Assembly: GCA_016197305.1 (NCBI GenBank)
Contig: JACPVZ010000045.1
Span: forward strand, 1-48,907
Source: Nitrosomonadales bacterium
Lineage (GTDB): Bacteria; Pseudomonadota; Gammaproteobacteria; Burkholderiales; Gallionellaceae
Length of the DNA stretch: 48,907 nt
Direction: 5' to 3'
Shown in pieces: positions 4,448 to 28,983 of the stretch; within the stretch, counting starts at the first letter, position 1; the number at the start of each line of letters is the position of its first letter. The position numbers were made by a program, and so were the translations under genes. Below the pieces are notes generated by a model that saw nothing but the letters and a program-made list of their open reading frames with translations, was not told the DNA's origin and searched no databases.

Positions 4448-5221
4448 TTACTGCTCCTTGTTATGCGGGTCTTGTTCCTTCTGGAACTGCGCCAGAAGCC
4501 GAGACTCCTCTTTTGTCAAAGCACGCTGGGCCAATAAATCCGGCCTGCGCAACCACGTTCTGCCCAACGACTGCTGAAGCCGCCAACGCTGTATGTCCGC
4601 ATGATTGCCGGACAACAACACCGGGGGCACGGCTTCACCATTAAACTGTTCCGGGCGGGTGTAGTGCGGGCAATCCAGCAAGCCCTGCACGAACGAATCC
4701 TGCTCCGCCGATTCGGCATCGCCCAGCACACCGGGCAGTTGCCGCACCAGACTATCCATCAACACCATCGCCGCCAACTCGCCACCCGACAACACATAGT
4801 CGCCGATGGAGATCTCTTCATCCACATACTGACGGATCAGGCGTTCGTCTATGCCTTCATAACGTCCGGCCAGCAGGATCAAACCCTCATCCAGCTGCGC
4901 CACCAATTCCTTGACCGCCGCGTGGCTCAACAACCTGCCCTGCGGCGACAGATACACCACCCGGCTCTTCGCCACCCCGCTGGCCGCCTGCCGCTGTTTC
5001 GCCGCGCTGATCGCGGCCGCCAGCGGCTCCGCCAGCATCACCATCCCCGGCCCGCCGCCATAGGGGCGGTCGTCTATCGAGTGGTAGTTATCCGTCGTAA
5101 AATCCCGCGGATTCCACGTCCTCAGGACATAACGTCCCTGTTCTGCCGCGCGCCGCGTGATGCCATATTGCGTCAGCGCATCGAACATCTGGGGAAACAG
5201 CGTGATAACGTCGAATATCAC
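4448..5221 (-). CDS. trmD: tRNA (guanine37-N1)-methyltransferase
   Basis: [24 protein letters not shown]...[13 protein letters not shown]; probable GTG start at 5221 (ORF track starts at 5242). Confidence 0.95.
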
Positions 5222-21174: not shown

Positions 21175-21783
21175 AGCGCCCTCCTTATCACCGTCCCGCC
21201 GCCATAGTCGCCCTTAGGCCGGGGATTTTGCGCCCTTACCTTTCGATAAGTTTGCCCAGTGATCGCAGGCTATTGAATCGCTCCCCGATGGTCAATTCAC
21301 GTCAGGACGGATGGTTAGGTCTTTGGACAACTGGAAGATTGGCAGGATGAACGGTCGAATTCCCGGATGAACGGCAAACGGATAATTTCCAGAAATCCCC
21401 CCCATGCACAACATTCCGTTTGCTGATGAAGCCGGTGCTTCGCCGAAAAAATGTTCGCGACGTTTTTTCCCGAACGCGCGCCGGCTGAAATCAGGCCAAC
21501 CTGTTGATCCCGCTTCCATCCTGCGCATCCAGAACAACCGCTGCACACCAAACTTCAAGGACGATCCCATCATGCCGAGTCGAATATTTTGTATTGTTGA
21601 ACCTAATCTTGATAAGATTGCCTACGTCACTCATGAGTGTGCCAAGGCAGCCGCACCATTCTGTGCGGGCAGGATGCCCTGTCTCTAAACCCACCCGAGG
21701 AAACAGAAGATGCCGTCAGGCTGCAGTCAACGCTTGGATACAACTGCGCGCACCTTGCGCGATACCCCGCCTAAGCGCCGGCT

Positions 21784-24588
21784 GTGCGATGCATTTTCCG
21801 CCTCAAGGCTTGCGACCGGACAATGATAGACACCACGAGACATGACACCCTGCAGAAACAAATCAAGCTGACCATTGCATGGCTGGCTGGAAGCGCCGTG
21901 CTGATCATTGCCCTGCTGGTCTGGCGAACCACGAAGGAAACCGAGCATCATCACATCCTGTATGACTATCACCTGATGTCGGTCACCCATGCCGAAGCGA
22001 TCCACACGGCCTATGCCGCGATCACCCCGCCCAGCGGCATGCACGAAACGGATGCCTCGACGATCACCGACCGGCATGCCTTCGTCGACAACGTGCTGCT
22101 CCAGTACCAGAAAATTCTCGACCACAGCTCGGCACTGTTCGCGCTCGACAGCCAATACGCCGATCCCGCAATGACCAGTGCCACGCAGAGCCTGCGCGAC
22201 GAAATCTCCGCGTTGCAGCACCTCGCCGAAAACCATGGCGACAATCACTATGACTTTGCCCTCGCGCTGTCCCGCGGCACACCGAGGCTCGGCATGATCA
22301 GCGACCAGCTGTCCCGCCTGCATCGCGATGAATTTTTAAGCGAGCTGGCCGAACATGACCGGCAAATCCTTTTCCAGTGGGCAGCCCTGTCCGCCCTGGC
22401 GCTGAGCCTGCTCACCGGCACGATAATGCTGCTGCGCCGCAACTTTTCAGCCATCGACGCGGCGCGGAGCCATGAGCGCCAGGCAATGCACGCGATGCAG
22501 CGTTCCGAACAAAAATTTCGCGCGCTGTTCAACTCGACCAGCGATGCGGTCATCCTGATGACAGGGAAACAAGTCATAGACTGCAACAAATCGACGCTGA
22601 CATTGTTCGGCTGCTCCTCTAGCGAGGAGTTCTATGCAAAATTCCCTGCCGAGCTATCCGCCCCCGAACAACCGTTCGGCCCGGGATTCATCCCGTTGGC
22701 CGACTGGCAGAACAACGTGCTCAAGCACAACAACGGCGGCTATTTCGAGTGGCTGCACAAACGTGCCGACACCGGAGCGACCTTCTATGCCGAGGTACTG
22801 ATCGACAGCATGGTGATAGACGGCCAGGCCGTGCTGCAGGCGACGATACGCGACATCACGCGGCGCAAACAGACCGAACAGGCATTGCAGGAAAGCGAAT
22901 CCCGTTTCCGCGCCATTATCGAAGCCACACCGGTACCGCTGGCGCTGAACGACGGGCAGGGCAACATCACGTTCCTGAACCAGGCCTTTACCGAAACGCT
23001 GGGCTACACCCTGGACGACATCCCGACGCTGGCCGAGTGGTGGCCGCGCGCCTATCCCGATCCACAGTACCGGCAGCGTGTCATGGATAGCTGGCAGCAC
23101 AATCTCGCCGAAGCACAGCGTGCCGGCACCCCGTTCTCCCCGCTGGAACTCGAGATCACCCGCGAGGACGGACGCAGAGGCACGTTCCTGGTCGGTGCAG
23201 CGGACTTGCAAGGCAGCTTCTCCGGAATCCACCTCGTCACGTTGTACGACATCACCTCGCTCAAGGTCGCGGAACAGGAGATCAGGACGCTGGCCTTCTA
23301 TGACCCGCTGACGCATCTGCCCAACCGCCGGCTGCTGCTGGACCGCCTTAACCATGCGCTGCTGTCCAGCACGCGCAGCGGACGCAGCGGGGCGCTGCTG
23401 TTCATCGATCTCGACCACTTCAAGGATCTCAACGATACGCTAGGCCACGACATCGGCGACTTGCTGCTGCAGCAAGTCGCGCAACGCCTAGCCTCCTGCG
23501 TGCGAGAAGACGATACCGTGGCGCGCCTGGGCGGCGACGAATTCGTGGTGATGCTGGAAAATCTCAGCGAATACCCCATTGAGGCCGCCACGCAAACCGA
23601 GGTGATCGGCGACAAGATTCTCGCCAGCCTGAATCAGCCTTTCCAGCTCGCACAATACGAATTCCTCAACTCCAGCAGCATAGGCGCGACGCTGTTCCAT
23701 GGCCAGCAGCAGACAGTCGAGGAGCTGCTCAAGCAGGCCGACATCGCGATGTATCAATCCAAGGCCGCGGGACGCAATACGCTGCGCTTCTTCGACCCGC
23801 AGATGCAGGCCTCCATCTCGGAGCGCGTCGCACTGGAAGGGGATTTGCGCCAGGCGCTGGCGGGCAATCAGTTCCAGCTCTATTACCAGCTGCAGATCGA
23901 CCATGCCGGGCACGCCGTCGGTGCCGAAGCGCTGATCCGCTGGCTGCACCCGCAACGCGGCATGGTGTCTCCGGGCGTCTTCATCCCGCTGGCCGAGGAA
24001 ACCGGCCTGATCCTGCCGATAGGCGCCTGGGTGATGCAAACGGCCTGCGCCCAGATCAAGCAATGGGAACTCAATCCGCTCACCCGCGATTTGCAACTGG
24101 CCGTCAATATCAGCGCACGGCAGTTCCACCAGCCAGATTTCGTAGCCCAGGTCGATGACACCCTGAACAACAGCGCGATCAAACCCGACCGCCTGAAGCT
24201 GGAGATGACCGAAAGCCTGGTGCTCTCCGACATCGACGATACCATCGCCAAGATGCAGGAGTTGCGCAAGCGCGGCGTGTGTTTTTCGATGGATGACTTC
24301 GGGACCGGCCATTCTTCATTGTCCAGCCTGAGAAAACTGCCGCTCGACCAGCTCAAGATCGACCAGAGTTTCGTGCGCGACATCACCACCGATCCGGACG
24401 ATGCGGTGATCGTGCAGACCATCATTGCGATGGCGCAGAATCTGGGCATGGAAGTGATCGCCGAGGGTGTGGAGACCGAGCCGCAACGCGCGTTCCTGCA
24501 ACAGCATGGCTGCGACACCTATCAGGGTTACCTGTTCAGCAAGCCTCTGCCGCTGGCGCAGTTCGAAGAACTGCTGACGCGGCTTTAA
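21784..24588 (+). CDS. Membrane sensor diguanylate cyclase/phosphodiesterase (PAS-PAS-GGDEF-EAL)
   Basis: Two N-terminal TM segments; [19 protein letters not shown] (GGDEF); [15 protein letters not shown] (EAL). Alternative start 21823. Confidence 0.92.
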
Positions 24589-25513: not shown

Positions 25514-26527
25514 ATGACTTTTCACACCACCCTCCAGCCCAGCGGCCACAGCTTCGACCATCCTGAACTTGAAACCATCCTGGAAGCCGCGCTCAAGAAC
25601 GGTTATATCCTGCCTTACAGCTGTCGCGATGGCGTATGCGGTGCCTGCAAGGGCAGGATATTGCAGGGTCGGGTGGATTATGGCAAATATCAGGCCACGA
25701 CGCTGACCGATGCGGAACGCGAGGCCGGCATGGCGCTGTTCTGCTGCGCAAAGCCGCTTTCCGACCTGGTCATCGAATGCCGCGAAGTGAACAGCATCAA
25801 AGACATTCCTGTAAAGACCATGCCCTGCCGGGTGCAAAGCATGGCCCGTCCCGCGCCGGACGTGATGGTGCTGAAACTCAAGCTACCGGCCAGCGAGCGC
25901 CTGCAATTCATCGCCGGGCAGTACATCGACATCCTGCTGAAAGACCACAAGCCGCGCAGCTTCTCGCTGGCCAACGCACCGCATGACGACGAATTCCTGG
26001 AATTGCACATCCGCAACATCGCCGGCGGCGAGTTCACCCGGCATGTGTTCGAGACGATGAAGGAGCGCGACATCCTGCGCTTCAAGGGGCCGCTGGGCAC
26101 GTTCTTCCTGCGCGAGGATACCGACAAGCCGATCATCTTCGTCGCCAGCGGCACCGGTTTCGCACCGATCAAGGCGATCATCGAGCACGCGCTGCATGCC
26201 GGCATCAAGCGCCCGATGCATTTCTATTGGGGTGCGCGCAAACTGGCCGACCTGTATATGCTGGAACTGGCGGAACAGTGGCAAAGCAGAGGCATCCGCT
26301 TCACCCCGGTGCTCTCCGACGCACTGGCCGAAGATCACTGGCAAGGCCGCACCGGCTTCGTCCATGAGGCTTTGCTGCAGGATTATGCCGACCTGTCCGG
26401 CCACGAGGTGTATGCCTGCGGCGCACCGGTCGTCGTGGAAGCCGCACACCGGGATTTCACCGCGCAGCGCAAACTGCCCAACGAGGCGTTCTTCTCCGAC
26501 GCGTTCACCTTCGTTCCGAAAAGCTAG
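25514..26527 (+). CDS. 2Fe-2S ferredoxin/FAD-NAD oxidoreductase (CDP-6-deoxy-delta-3,4-glucoseen reductase-like)
   Basis: ILPYSCRDGVCGACKGRILQG 2Fe-2S motif; RSFSLANAP; FVASGTGFAPIKAIIEHAL. Confidence 0.88.
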   Translation: MTFHTTLQPSGHSFDHPELETILEAALKNGYILPYSCRDGVCGACKGRILQGRVDYGKYQATTLTDAEREAGMALFCCAKPLSDLVIECREVNSIKDIPVKTMPCRVQSMARPAPDVMVLKLKLPASERLQFIAGQYIDILLKDHKPRSFSLANAPHDDEFLELHIRNIAGGEFTRHVFETMKERDILRFKGPLGTFFLREDTDKPIIFVASGTGFAPIKAIIEHALHAGIKRPMHFYWGARKLADLYMLELAEQWQSRGIRFTPVLSDALAEDHWQGRTGFVHEALLQDYADLSGHEVYACGAPVVVEAAHRDFTAQRKLPNEAFFSDAFTFVPKS

Positions 26528-26677
26528 GTCATACGATCAAGCAAAGCTTGGTCAGACACAGACTGTCAGATAGGCGGCCTCGCCGCCATGTAGATTTAAA
26601 TTGAATGGCCGCAAGCAGCACTTCGCGATCTACTGTTCACGACCCTTTGCAGTCCTACAAGATTCTGGAAAGCGTTC

Positions 26678-26744
26678 GTTCAACGTCTGAGTTCAGGGGC
26701 GCGCTGCCGATAGGCGGCGCGTCTCTTGCAACGATAAGTTAGGC
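26678..26744 (-). repeat. attC-like (59-base-element-like) recombination site
   Basis: Minus strand: GCCTAAC-ttatcgttgcaagagacgcgccgcctatcggcagcgcgcccctgaactcagac-GTTGAAC. Fits RYYYAAC...GTTRRRY, 67 nt, imperfect stem with unpaired base, just 3' of a short-leader gene. Confidence 0.75.
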
Positions 26745-27530
26745 TGAACAGTTTTCACAGCGTAGAGAAGTACAAGGTTGTCATTGTTGTAAACACCTCC
26801 GGTTTTCCCGAAATCCTTCCGGTGAAATAGACGCCAGTCCTGCGGCGGGCGTAAATATCGAGCTCTTGTGCAACAGCGCGCGCGGAAAATTCCTCAGCGG
26901 TCTCAAGTTGCTCAAGACGAATAGTGATTCCAAGATCGACCTCACTACTTACGAAAGAGTCTGGCACCCAGCCTCTAACAGTGCATTTCCAGTCTGTCTC
27001 GGGTCCATAGGTGACCTCGATCCAATCATCTTTCTCGGATTCGCCATCATCAGGACGTAAGACAAAATCGTTTAAGACGCTCGTGCTGAGCAGGTCTGTC
27101 GAGCGCAGGAAGTACCACGAAAATTCGACCAACTCTTGGCACCGACGGTGAGGAGGAGGACTTTTGTAGTGATGTTCTAGGAGGTTCCTCACTTCAGATA
27201 CTTCGCGAAGCATAGTGGGCCTAGCGATTCCAAAATATCCCAGCACATCGAGCAATTCTGACGGTTTAGATGCATCAGGAATCTTCTTGAAGCGATACAA
27301 AGACGTGAGTCGCTTGAGCCTATGGTCAATAGCTCGTTTAAGGTTTCCCACGCAGTCGATCCGAAAATGCTCATTGTCAGGATGCGCCAACAAGTTTTCT
27401 GCATGCTTCCAGTATCTATAAGGCGTTCTCCAATTCTGATCGTCGGCAATTGCCGAGGACTGGCGTGAAGGAGCCCATGACAGGATTTGTGTTGTGAGCG
27501 AAATCTCACGGCTGATCATTTGGAGCCTAA
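26684..27530 (-). mobile_element. Putative integron-type gene cassette (single), no integrase in window
   Basis: Boundaries inferred as G^TTRRRY at both ends: GTTAGGC at 27531-27525 and GTTGAAC at 26684-26678. The joined circle gives R' GTTAGGC, exactly complementary to R'' GCCTAAC. Confidence 0.7.
26755..27519 (-). CDS. Cassette-borne hypothetical protein with HEPN-like N-terminal region (R-x4-H)
   Basis: 254 aa; helical WKHAENLLAHP...NLKRAIDHRLKRL...LREVSEVRNLLEHHYKSPP; ATG 5 nt after GTTAGGC; AT-richer than flanks. Confidence 0.65.
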   Translation of the reverse strand: MISREISLTTQILSWAPSRQSSAIADDQNWRTPYRYWKHAENLLAHPDNEHFRIDCVGNLKRAIDHRLKRLTSLYRFKKIPDASKPSELLDVLGYFGIARPTMLREVSEVRNLLEHHYKSPPPHRRCQELVEFSWYFLRSTDLLSTSVLNDFVLRPDDGESEKDDWIEVTYGPETDWKCTVRGWVPDSFVSSEVDLGITIRLEQLETAEEFSARAVAQELDIYARRRTGVYFTGRISGKPEVFTTMTTLYFSTL

Positions 27531-27807
27531 CAATTATTAGACAGACCTACCTGTCTGTACTATTAAAAATAGTGTGGAATGCATATTTTCGGTAAGCAAT
27601 TGTTCATTGAACCTCCCCCGTTTTTATTGTTCCGCATATGCGTTAATAGCACGGACGGATTGAACCATATATTTCCACAACCGAATATAGGCCGAAGTAT
27701 CTAGACAATCTGGCCTAGTCATAATTTCTAAGGGCGCGCCTAACGACTGCAAATGGCACACAGCGGAATTCAAAATCGCAAAATGGCTTGCATGAAAGCG
27801 GACGCAA

Positions 27808-28983
27808 CTAATGCCCGGCATTCAGCTGCAGTGCGAGGTGGTAATACTTGCTCGCCTGTTCGGCGTTGCCCAGGCGTTCCGCCAGGAGGCCCAACGCTTC
27901 ATAGGCGCCCTTGCCGGGTGAGATACTGATGCTGGCATCCAGATAGCTCTGCGCCTTGCCCCACAGCTTTTGGTGCAGGCACAGCTTGCCCAGCGCCAGC
28001 AGCAAGCCTGCATCCTGCTTGTGCTGATTGAGCCATTTCTCGGCCTGCTCGATCTGCACCAGCACATCGCCCGACTGGCAATCGCCGTACAGCGCAACCA
28101 GTTCGCTGTCCCACTGCGCGTTCAGGCTGTCCGAGAGCAGCTGTTGCGCGACCGCGCCGCCGCCGTGCCGGATCAACGCCGATGCAGCGGTGGCGGCAAT
28201 CCTGCTGCGGCGCTTGAAGTCGGCCGGAATGTTCTTCAGGCAGGCCTCCAGCCCTTCGAGATTTTCCTGCTGGCCGATCTTCTCCAGACAGGCCTGCTGA
28301 CGCAGCTGTGCCGCGACCGTCACATCGATGGCCTGGCGTTTCTCCAGCTGCTCCAGCACCCGCAGCACCTCATCCCAGTTGCCGGCCTGGCGCTGCGCCT
28401 TCAGCTCCAGCGAGAGCGCGCCGACGTGGCCCTTGACGCCGGTGTCGCGCAGCTCCTGCAGCGCGTTCAGCGCGGCGCGCGGGTCGCGCTGGTCAAGCAT
28501 GAATTTGGTCGTGGCCATCAGGCGCATCGTCGCATCGCCGACCTTGCGGCCTTCGGCCGCGGCCAGATAGGCGTCGCGCTTTTCGTATTCGTGCAATTCA
28601 TGCGCCGCGCGCGCCGCGATGATGGGGTGCAACGCCGAGGTGTCGCCCAGCTCCATCGCACGTGCCGCCGCCTTTTCCGCCTCGGCGTAACGCCCCTCGA
28701 AGTAGGCGCTGAGGGTTTCGTCGAGCAGTTCGCGCGCCTTGGCCTGGGCGCGCTCCAGGCGGAATTTCTTCACATAGGCCGGCAGCTGCAGCGCGGCGAT
28801 GACCAGGCGCAGCAGGCCGTAGCCGAACACCAGCGTCAGCAACCACAGCACGACGAACAGAATGAACGACATCTCGATACGGTACGGCGGATACACCAGC
28901 AACACATAGGCCGGGTTGTGCGAGGCCATCGTCAGCGCGACCGCAGCGGCAAACAACAGCAATATCCAGATCAGGTATTTCAT
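27808..28983 (-). CDS. hemY: HemY protein (heme biosynthesis-associated TPR membrane protein)
   Basis: MKYLIWILLLFAAAVALTMASHNPAYVLLVYPPYRIEMS; hemCDXY order. Confidence 0.92.
   Translation of the reverse strand: MKYLIWILLLFAAAVALTMASHNPAYVLLVYPPYRIEMSFILFVVLWLLTLVFGYGLLRLVIAALQLPAYVKKFRLERAQAKARELLDETLSAYFEGRYAEAEKAAARAMELGDTSALHPIIAARAAHELHEYEKRDAYLAAAEGRKVGDATMRLMATTKFMLDQRDPRAALNALQELRDTGVKGHVGALSLELKAQRQAGNWDEVLRVLEQLEKRQAIDVTVAAQLRQQACLEKIGQQENLEGLEACLKNIPADFKRRSRIAATAASALIRHGGGAVAQQLLSDSLNAQWDSELVALYGDCQSGDVLVQIEQAEKWLNQHKQDAGLLLALGKLCLHQKLWGKAQSYLDASISISPGKGAYEALGLLAERLGNAEQASKYYHLALQLNAGH

Follow-up and report, generated by a model that had tools for sequence, protein, structure and literature searches.

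The integron is usually pictured as a single platform consisting of an integrase gene (intI), one attI site and an array of gene cassettes. Clusters of attC sites without an integrase (CALINs), including those with a single attC, are known, and the single-attC cases are acknowledged as possible true positives (IntegronFinder, PMC9024848). Insertions at attG sites place cassettes at many chromosomal positions off the integron (Loot et al. 2024, Nat Microbiol 9:228, cited in PMC12901181 and PMC12444791), and in Delta-attI-type cassettes, found in class 1/2 arrays, a truncated attI takes the place of attC downstream of the ORF (Partridge 2009; PMC12901181).

Here, we describe a locus that resembles each of these in part. 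Like a CALIN or single attC, it has an attC-bearing cassette without intI, but it retains a recognizable attI, which itself exists in many dispersed copies. As in attG insertions, a cassette occupies a chromosomal position away from an integron; the target here, however, is an attI homologue rather than a non-classical genomic site. With Delta-attI-type cassettes it shares an attI away from its integrase (still a substrate in the Delta-attI case), whereas ours is full length, upstream, and found at separate chromosomal loci. The order of attI, attC, and cassette is that of a sedentary chromosomal integron, of which intact versions with the integrase IntI-B exist in G062, G512, G478, and Nitrotoga 1052, but at our locus there is no intI and only one cassette, and several such loci occur per genome.

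The window, that is, the whole 48,907-nt stretch of DNA that was analyzed, derives from the metagenome-assembled genome (MAG) of an iron-oxidizing, Gallionella-type bacterium (family Gallionellaceae). Between positions 26678 and 27531, its minus strand reads GTTAGGC-TCCAA-ATG...TGA-AAACTGTTCA-GCCTAAC...GTTGAAC. The upstream core GTTAGGC lies at 27531-27525, and the G/TT crossover falls between 27531 and 27530; the mobile cassette proper, with core positions read directly, spans 847 bp (TTAGGC ... G; 26684-27530, minus strand) and is bounded by G/TT at both ends. It holds a single ORF near the upstream core (26755-27519, minus strand, 254 aa), the ATG of which is 5 nt past that core, and from its stop codon it is about 10 nt to the start of the attC.

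The attC itself (26678-26744, minus strand), delimited by the covariance model R1 described below and by folding, begins with R'' GCCTAAC (26744-26738) and ends with an integrated R' GTTGAAC (26684-26678). R'' complements the upstream core exactly, and so also the R' of the free circle, whereas the integrated R' differs from GTTAGGC at three of seven positions. The flanking genes are chromosomal and convergent: a ferredoxin-reductase-type flavoprotein gene on the left (25514-26527, plus strand) and hemY on the right (27808-28983, minus strand; TIGR00540, E 5.7e-106). An earlier, sequence-only reading of this DNA had described these elements on the minus strand as an integron cassette with attC architecture, its boundaries, the R''/R' logic, the placement between convergent genes, and the lack of a nearby integrase, and all were found as described.

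The window contains no intI, and thus the locus lacks the cis integrase gene of a complete integron. That reading had also proposed looking for intI elsewhere in the genome; none scored above the curated cut-off in the source MAG, which is only 79.7% complete, so the integrase may simply be unsampled. Since the window has one attC, it falls short of the default CALIN definition (two or more attC sites without intI), and because IntegronFinder detects no attI outside class 1, this software would report the locus at most as a lone attC. At the gathering threshold, Rfam returned no relevant family in the window, reporting only a c-di-GMP-I riboswitch (21186-21266, minus strand, 48 bits); a large GGDEF/EAL-type protein is encoded at 21784-24588 on the opposite strand. 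A sigma-70 scan of 26500-27900 gave no site.

The attC architecture (R'' RYYYAAC, R' GTTRRRY, and an imperfect hairpin) is present at 26678-26744. The motif GCCTAAC-N45-75-GTTRRRY occurs once in the window against 0.02 occurrences expected from shuffles. In known attC biology, it is the bottom strand that folds better, and this is the case here (-14.1 vs. -10.1 kcal/mol for the top strand; z -2.07 vs. -0.86); where the inner-stem arms differ, the bottom strand has G.T wobbles and the top strand A.C mismatches.

Model R1 was built from eight short attC sites of congeneric integrons, aligned on the bottom strand, with the window left out. Its structure displays strong covariation, including double changes at ten pairs; none of 500 shuffles attained the observed score, and sliding the partners destroyed it. 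R1 has one match only in the window, at 26678-26744 on the bottom strand (26.3 bits, E 1.3e-4), so that both the covariance check and the folding check proposed in the sequence-only reading came out in favor of an attC. The score is modest (26 bits vs. 40-89 for recent congeneric sites), and the site may therefore be old. The element at 26678-27531 is thus confirmed as an integron gene cassette. Across the genus, 69 of 76 genomes have attC sites according to R1. Two single-contig genomes, G063 (3162471 bp) and G064 (2572603 bp), have no intI at E<=1e-60, yet carry 13-16 attC matches, which in G064 lie in about nine separate places, one or two in each.

When DNA searches were made with the whole intergenic region, both flanks of the cassette were found to recur elsewhere, and positions 27525-27660 matched more than 20 places at 71-91% identity. 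By BLAST, the upstream flank is 91% identical over about 134 nt to a copy in a congener (G076:C69) and 83% identical over about 200 nt to another on contig C52 of the source genome itself. We refer to this site of about 140 bp, which is delimited by BLAST to independent copies and ends in the core GTTAGGC, as attI-B (27525-27665, minus strand).

An attI canonically separates intI from the first cassette. This is where attI-B sits in G062 and Candidatus Nitrotoga sp. 1052, with a divergent intI on one side and the first attC cassette on the other, and R2, a sequence-only model made from 24 attI-B copies, finds it beside intI also in G512 and G478. There are thus four intact cis pairs (L310, L162, L405, and L409), whose integrases, IntI-B, are 82-100% identical to that of G062; in G025 (G025:C35), attI-B adjoins a truncated IntI-B. 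The other intI loci examined in the genus are without attI-B, most of its intI genes belonging to another lineage (37 of the 76 genomes have an intI match above cut-off). As judged from these alignments, attI-B and one IntI lineage, IntI-B, are probable partners, and the flank at 27525-27665 is an attI site by homology and position, with a putative role as integrase substrate. R2 was trained on 24 rows that include the window copy, the identity of which therefore rests on BLAST and not on an R2 score.

A short open frame (MNQLLIENMHSTLFLIVQTGGSV-stop) spans attI-B and ends just before the crossover, for example in L296, L210, and L304, and is reminiscent of ORF-11 in attI1. This 23-codon leader ORF is open in 20 distinct copies and frameshifted in the window copy; a pN/pS of about 0.8 gives no support for selection at the peptide level.

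Searching with R2 yielded 57 copies of attI-B at E<=1e-8 in 32 of the 76 same-genus genomes, where a single genome can hold as many as five; of 300 genomes drawn from the order, 22 also have copies. The nearly closed genomes G599 and G621 each have several dispersed copies, and the 55 copies with usable upstream sequence lie in 47 distinct upstream contexts. In the stretches taken, no intI was found beside attI-B other than in the cis pairs named above (four intact, and the truncated one of G025). The copies end at the G/TTRRRY crossover, in most the first ORF begins no more than about 50 nt from the GTTRRRY core, and many hold cassettes, with attC sites detected downstream in the correct orientation.

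Many weaker copies have no detectable attC, and recurring genes are found beside them; these appear to be old, fixed insertions. In five genomes (L361, L362, L372, L375, and L380), attI-B is followed by the same small gene (MPAWLIPVLKSVLPYVG...), and no attC was detected; this looks like a cassette that became fixed long ago and was retained along with its attI. In three genomes (L374, L376, and L378), a gene beginning MKMFR[IV]CGYGGGRSALVSRL starts where a degenerate attI-B ends. In G599, there are three copies of another tyrosine-recombinase-like gene (L398, L399, and L400), each no more than 3 kb from a solo attI-B.

How these solo copies arose can be read in more than one way. One reading, held with a little less than even confidence, is that attI-B disperses as a unit of its own: in Gallionella and other Burkholderiales, solo copies would have been multiplied at scattered chromosomal positions and would be landing pads for cassettes, with an integrase acting in trans that is encoded elsewhere or only intermittently present, such that the integron is distributed rather than confined to one array. 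Possible, but distinctly doubtful, is that the locus is what is left of a complete integron after deletion of its local intI, namely, attI plus one cassette (a one-attC CALIN with an attI). In its favor, attI-B lies beside a truncated intI in G025:C35, and CALINs are viewed as decayed integrons (PMC9024848). It would, however, require dozens of independent integron insertions with intI lost each time, and no intI remnant was detected in the 47 different contexts of the solo copies.

Also speaking against degradation are the left extension GTGCCATAAGGAGACATTCGC, which is common to several solo copies and absent from the intI-linked ones, and the two solo copies in G021, which lie in different contexts and are identical over the 134 bp compared. 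When attI copies were examined for clustering within genomes, 4 of 33 had their nearest neighbor in their own genome (P about 0.05), the G021 pair included. Together with recurring right ends at attI-B loci, the shared extension and the identical pair suggest, from sequence comparison, a unit that is being copied. Inverted terminal repeats around attI and its cassettes were suggestive of a MITE-like unit at four loci (L203, P 0.008; C33, 0.026; L210, 0.054; the window, 0.062) and were not significant at the other loci tested; this evidence is unconvincing, and we mention it as a lead only.

The source MAG has at least two further integrase-less attI loci. On C52, attI-B (4863-5008) precedes an ORF and an attC, with nadA farther downstream; on C33, a diverged attI (R2 E 0.0011) ends at the first core of an array of three cassettes, which is flanked by cysM and by a minus-strand gene neighboring uvrA. 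All three loci, that of the window included, are located between convergent genes. The outer 5' flank of the window locus (27747-27803, minus strand) recurs on C33, where it precedes the cassette array (C33:1197-1253, 79%), and partly on C67 (C67:21716-21772, 89%). At the other end, the array-end sequence GTTGAACGAACGCTTTCCAGAATCTTGTAGGACTGCAAAGGGTCG (26643-26687, minus strand) recurs as the C33 array end GTTGAACGACCGCTTTCCAGAATCTTGTAGGACT, which is 93% identical to the downstream flank of the window over 45 nt (L265:3715-3759), and, with an 86% match, after the terminal attC in G022 (L317).

An R' of the form GTTGA recurs at array ends across loci, while GTTAG or GTTGG predominates at internal cores. 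This pattern is most simply read to mean that GTTGAAC is the original half-site of the attI itself. With an attI upstream and a recurring GTTGAAC flank downstream, the locus is therefore an attI plus cassette lacking its integrase. The sequence-only reading had proposed a lone cassette at a secondary site or a remnant of an attC array without an integrase; the integrase-less cassette stands, and the secondary site does not.

We consider it very improbable that the cassette was inserted at a non-classical attG site in an ordinary chromosome. A single cassette without intI and with chromosomal genes on both sides would suit such an insertion, and genome-wide off-target insertion by the integron integrase is documented (Loot et al. 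2024, cited in PMC12901181 and PMC12444791). An attG target should be unrelated to attI or attC, but the upstream half-site here is the end of attI-B, a homologue of about 140 bp common to intI-linked integrons, with the downstream half recurring at another array end.

The cassette gene is absent from all 75 other same-genus genomes searched. Scans for close relatives of its ORF gave nothing in genome contigs or viral contigs, no match turned up among phages or PDB sequences, and the 254-aa product had none in Pfam, NCBIfam, or PADLOC. Homologues of the product at 27-37% identity are found on Vibrio campbellii plasmids and in G376 and G242, and all three of these independent groups are in attC-bearing cassettes: the Vibrio campbellii gene lies downstream of a VCR-like attC and a GNAT cassette, with a VCR-like site after it, that of G376 is inside a tandem attC array, and that of G242 has GTTAGAT on one side and an attC on the other. 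A chance hairpin beside an ordinary chromosomal gene, conceivable since single short motifs can mimic attC and the score is moderate, is highly improbable given the match to a held-out covariance model, the exact correspondence of R'' and upstream core, the attI upstream, the cassette-borne homologues, and the absence of the gene from relatives.

The hallmark of HEPN ribonucleases is an RNxxxH motif in a helical bundle. The four sequences compared share an RNxxEH motif in which R, N, E, and H are invariant, a faint hint that the product could be a HEPN-type ribonuclease; the Pfam HepT-like match is weak (E 0.14, in one family member only), and the structure prediction of the cassette protein was unusable (pLDDT 39).

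It is quite probable, in our judgment, that an integron integrase placed this single cassette into an integrase-less attI copy between convergent housekeeping genes by ordinary attI x attC recombination. The attC of the circular cassette, as a folded bottom strand, would recombine with double-stranded attI at G/TT; the cassette would supply the upstream core GTTAGGC, and the TTGAAC half of attI would end up at the far end. The integrase serving solo attI-B copies could act in trans or have been lost since, and attI may act as an expression leader for the inserted gene. Insertion into attI predicts an unoccupied reductase-hemY site of the form ...TAATAATTG/TTGAACGA... The comparison for an empty site proposed in the sequence-only reading yielded no exact one: a pattern search of 76 genomes for the junction (attI joined to GTTGAAC and the shared end) gave nothing convincing. 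In favor of insertion, congeners in which the reductase gene and hemY are directly adjacent have a gap of 50-130 bp with no attI.

Our search of open-license papers for solitary or orphan attI sites yielded no account of attI copies that are dispersed. In the present case, one attI type occurs mostly without an integrase beside it, at several positions per genome, and many of these copies carry one or a few cassettes. As standard software is blind to such an attI, these loci would be recorded as stray attC sites or overlooked, and some apparent secondary-site cassettes may be attI insertions, which can be checked with the sequences given here. The same sequences allow the action of IntI in trans on scattered attI sites to be tested. 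If the solo copies are active as targets, a single integrase could supply cassettes to many chromosomal positions that differ in neighborhood and expression.
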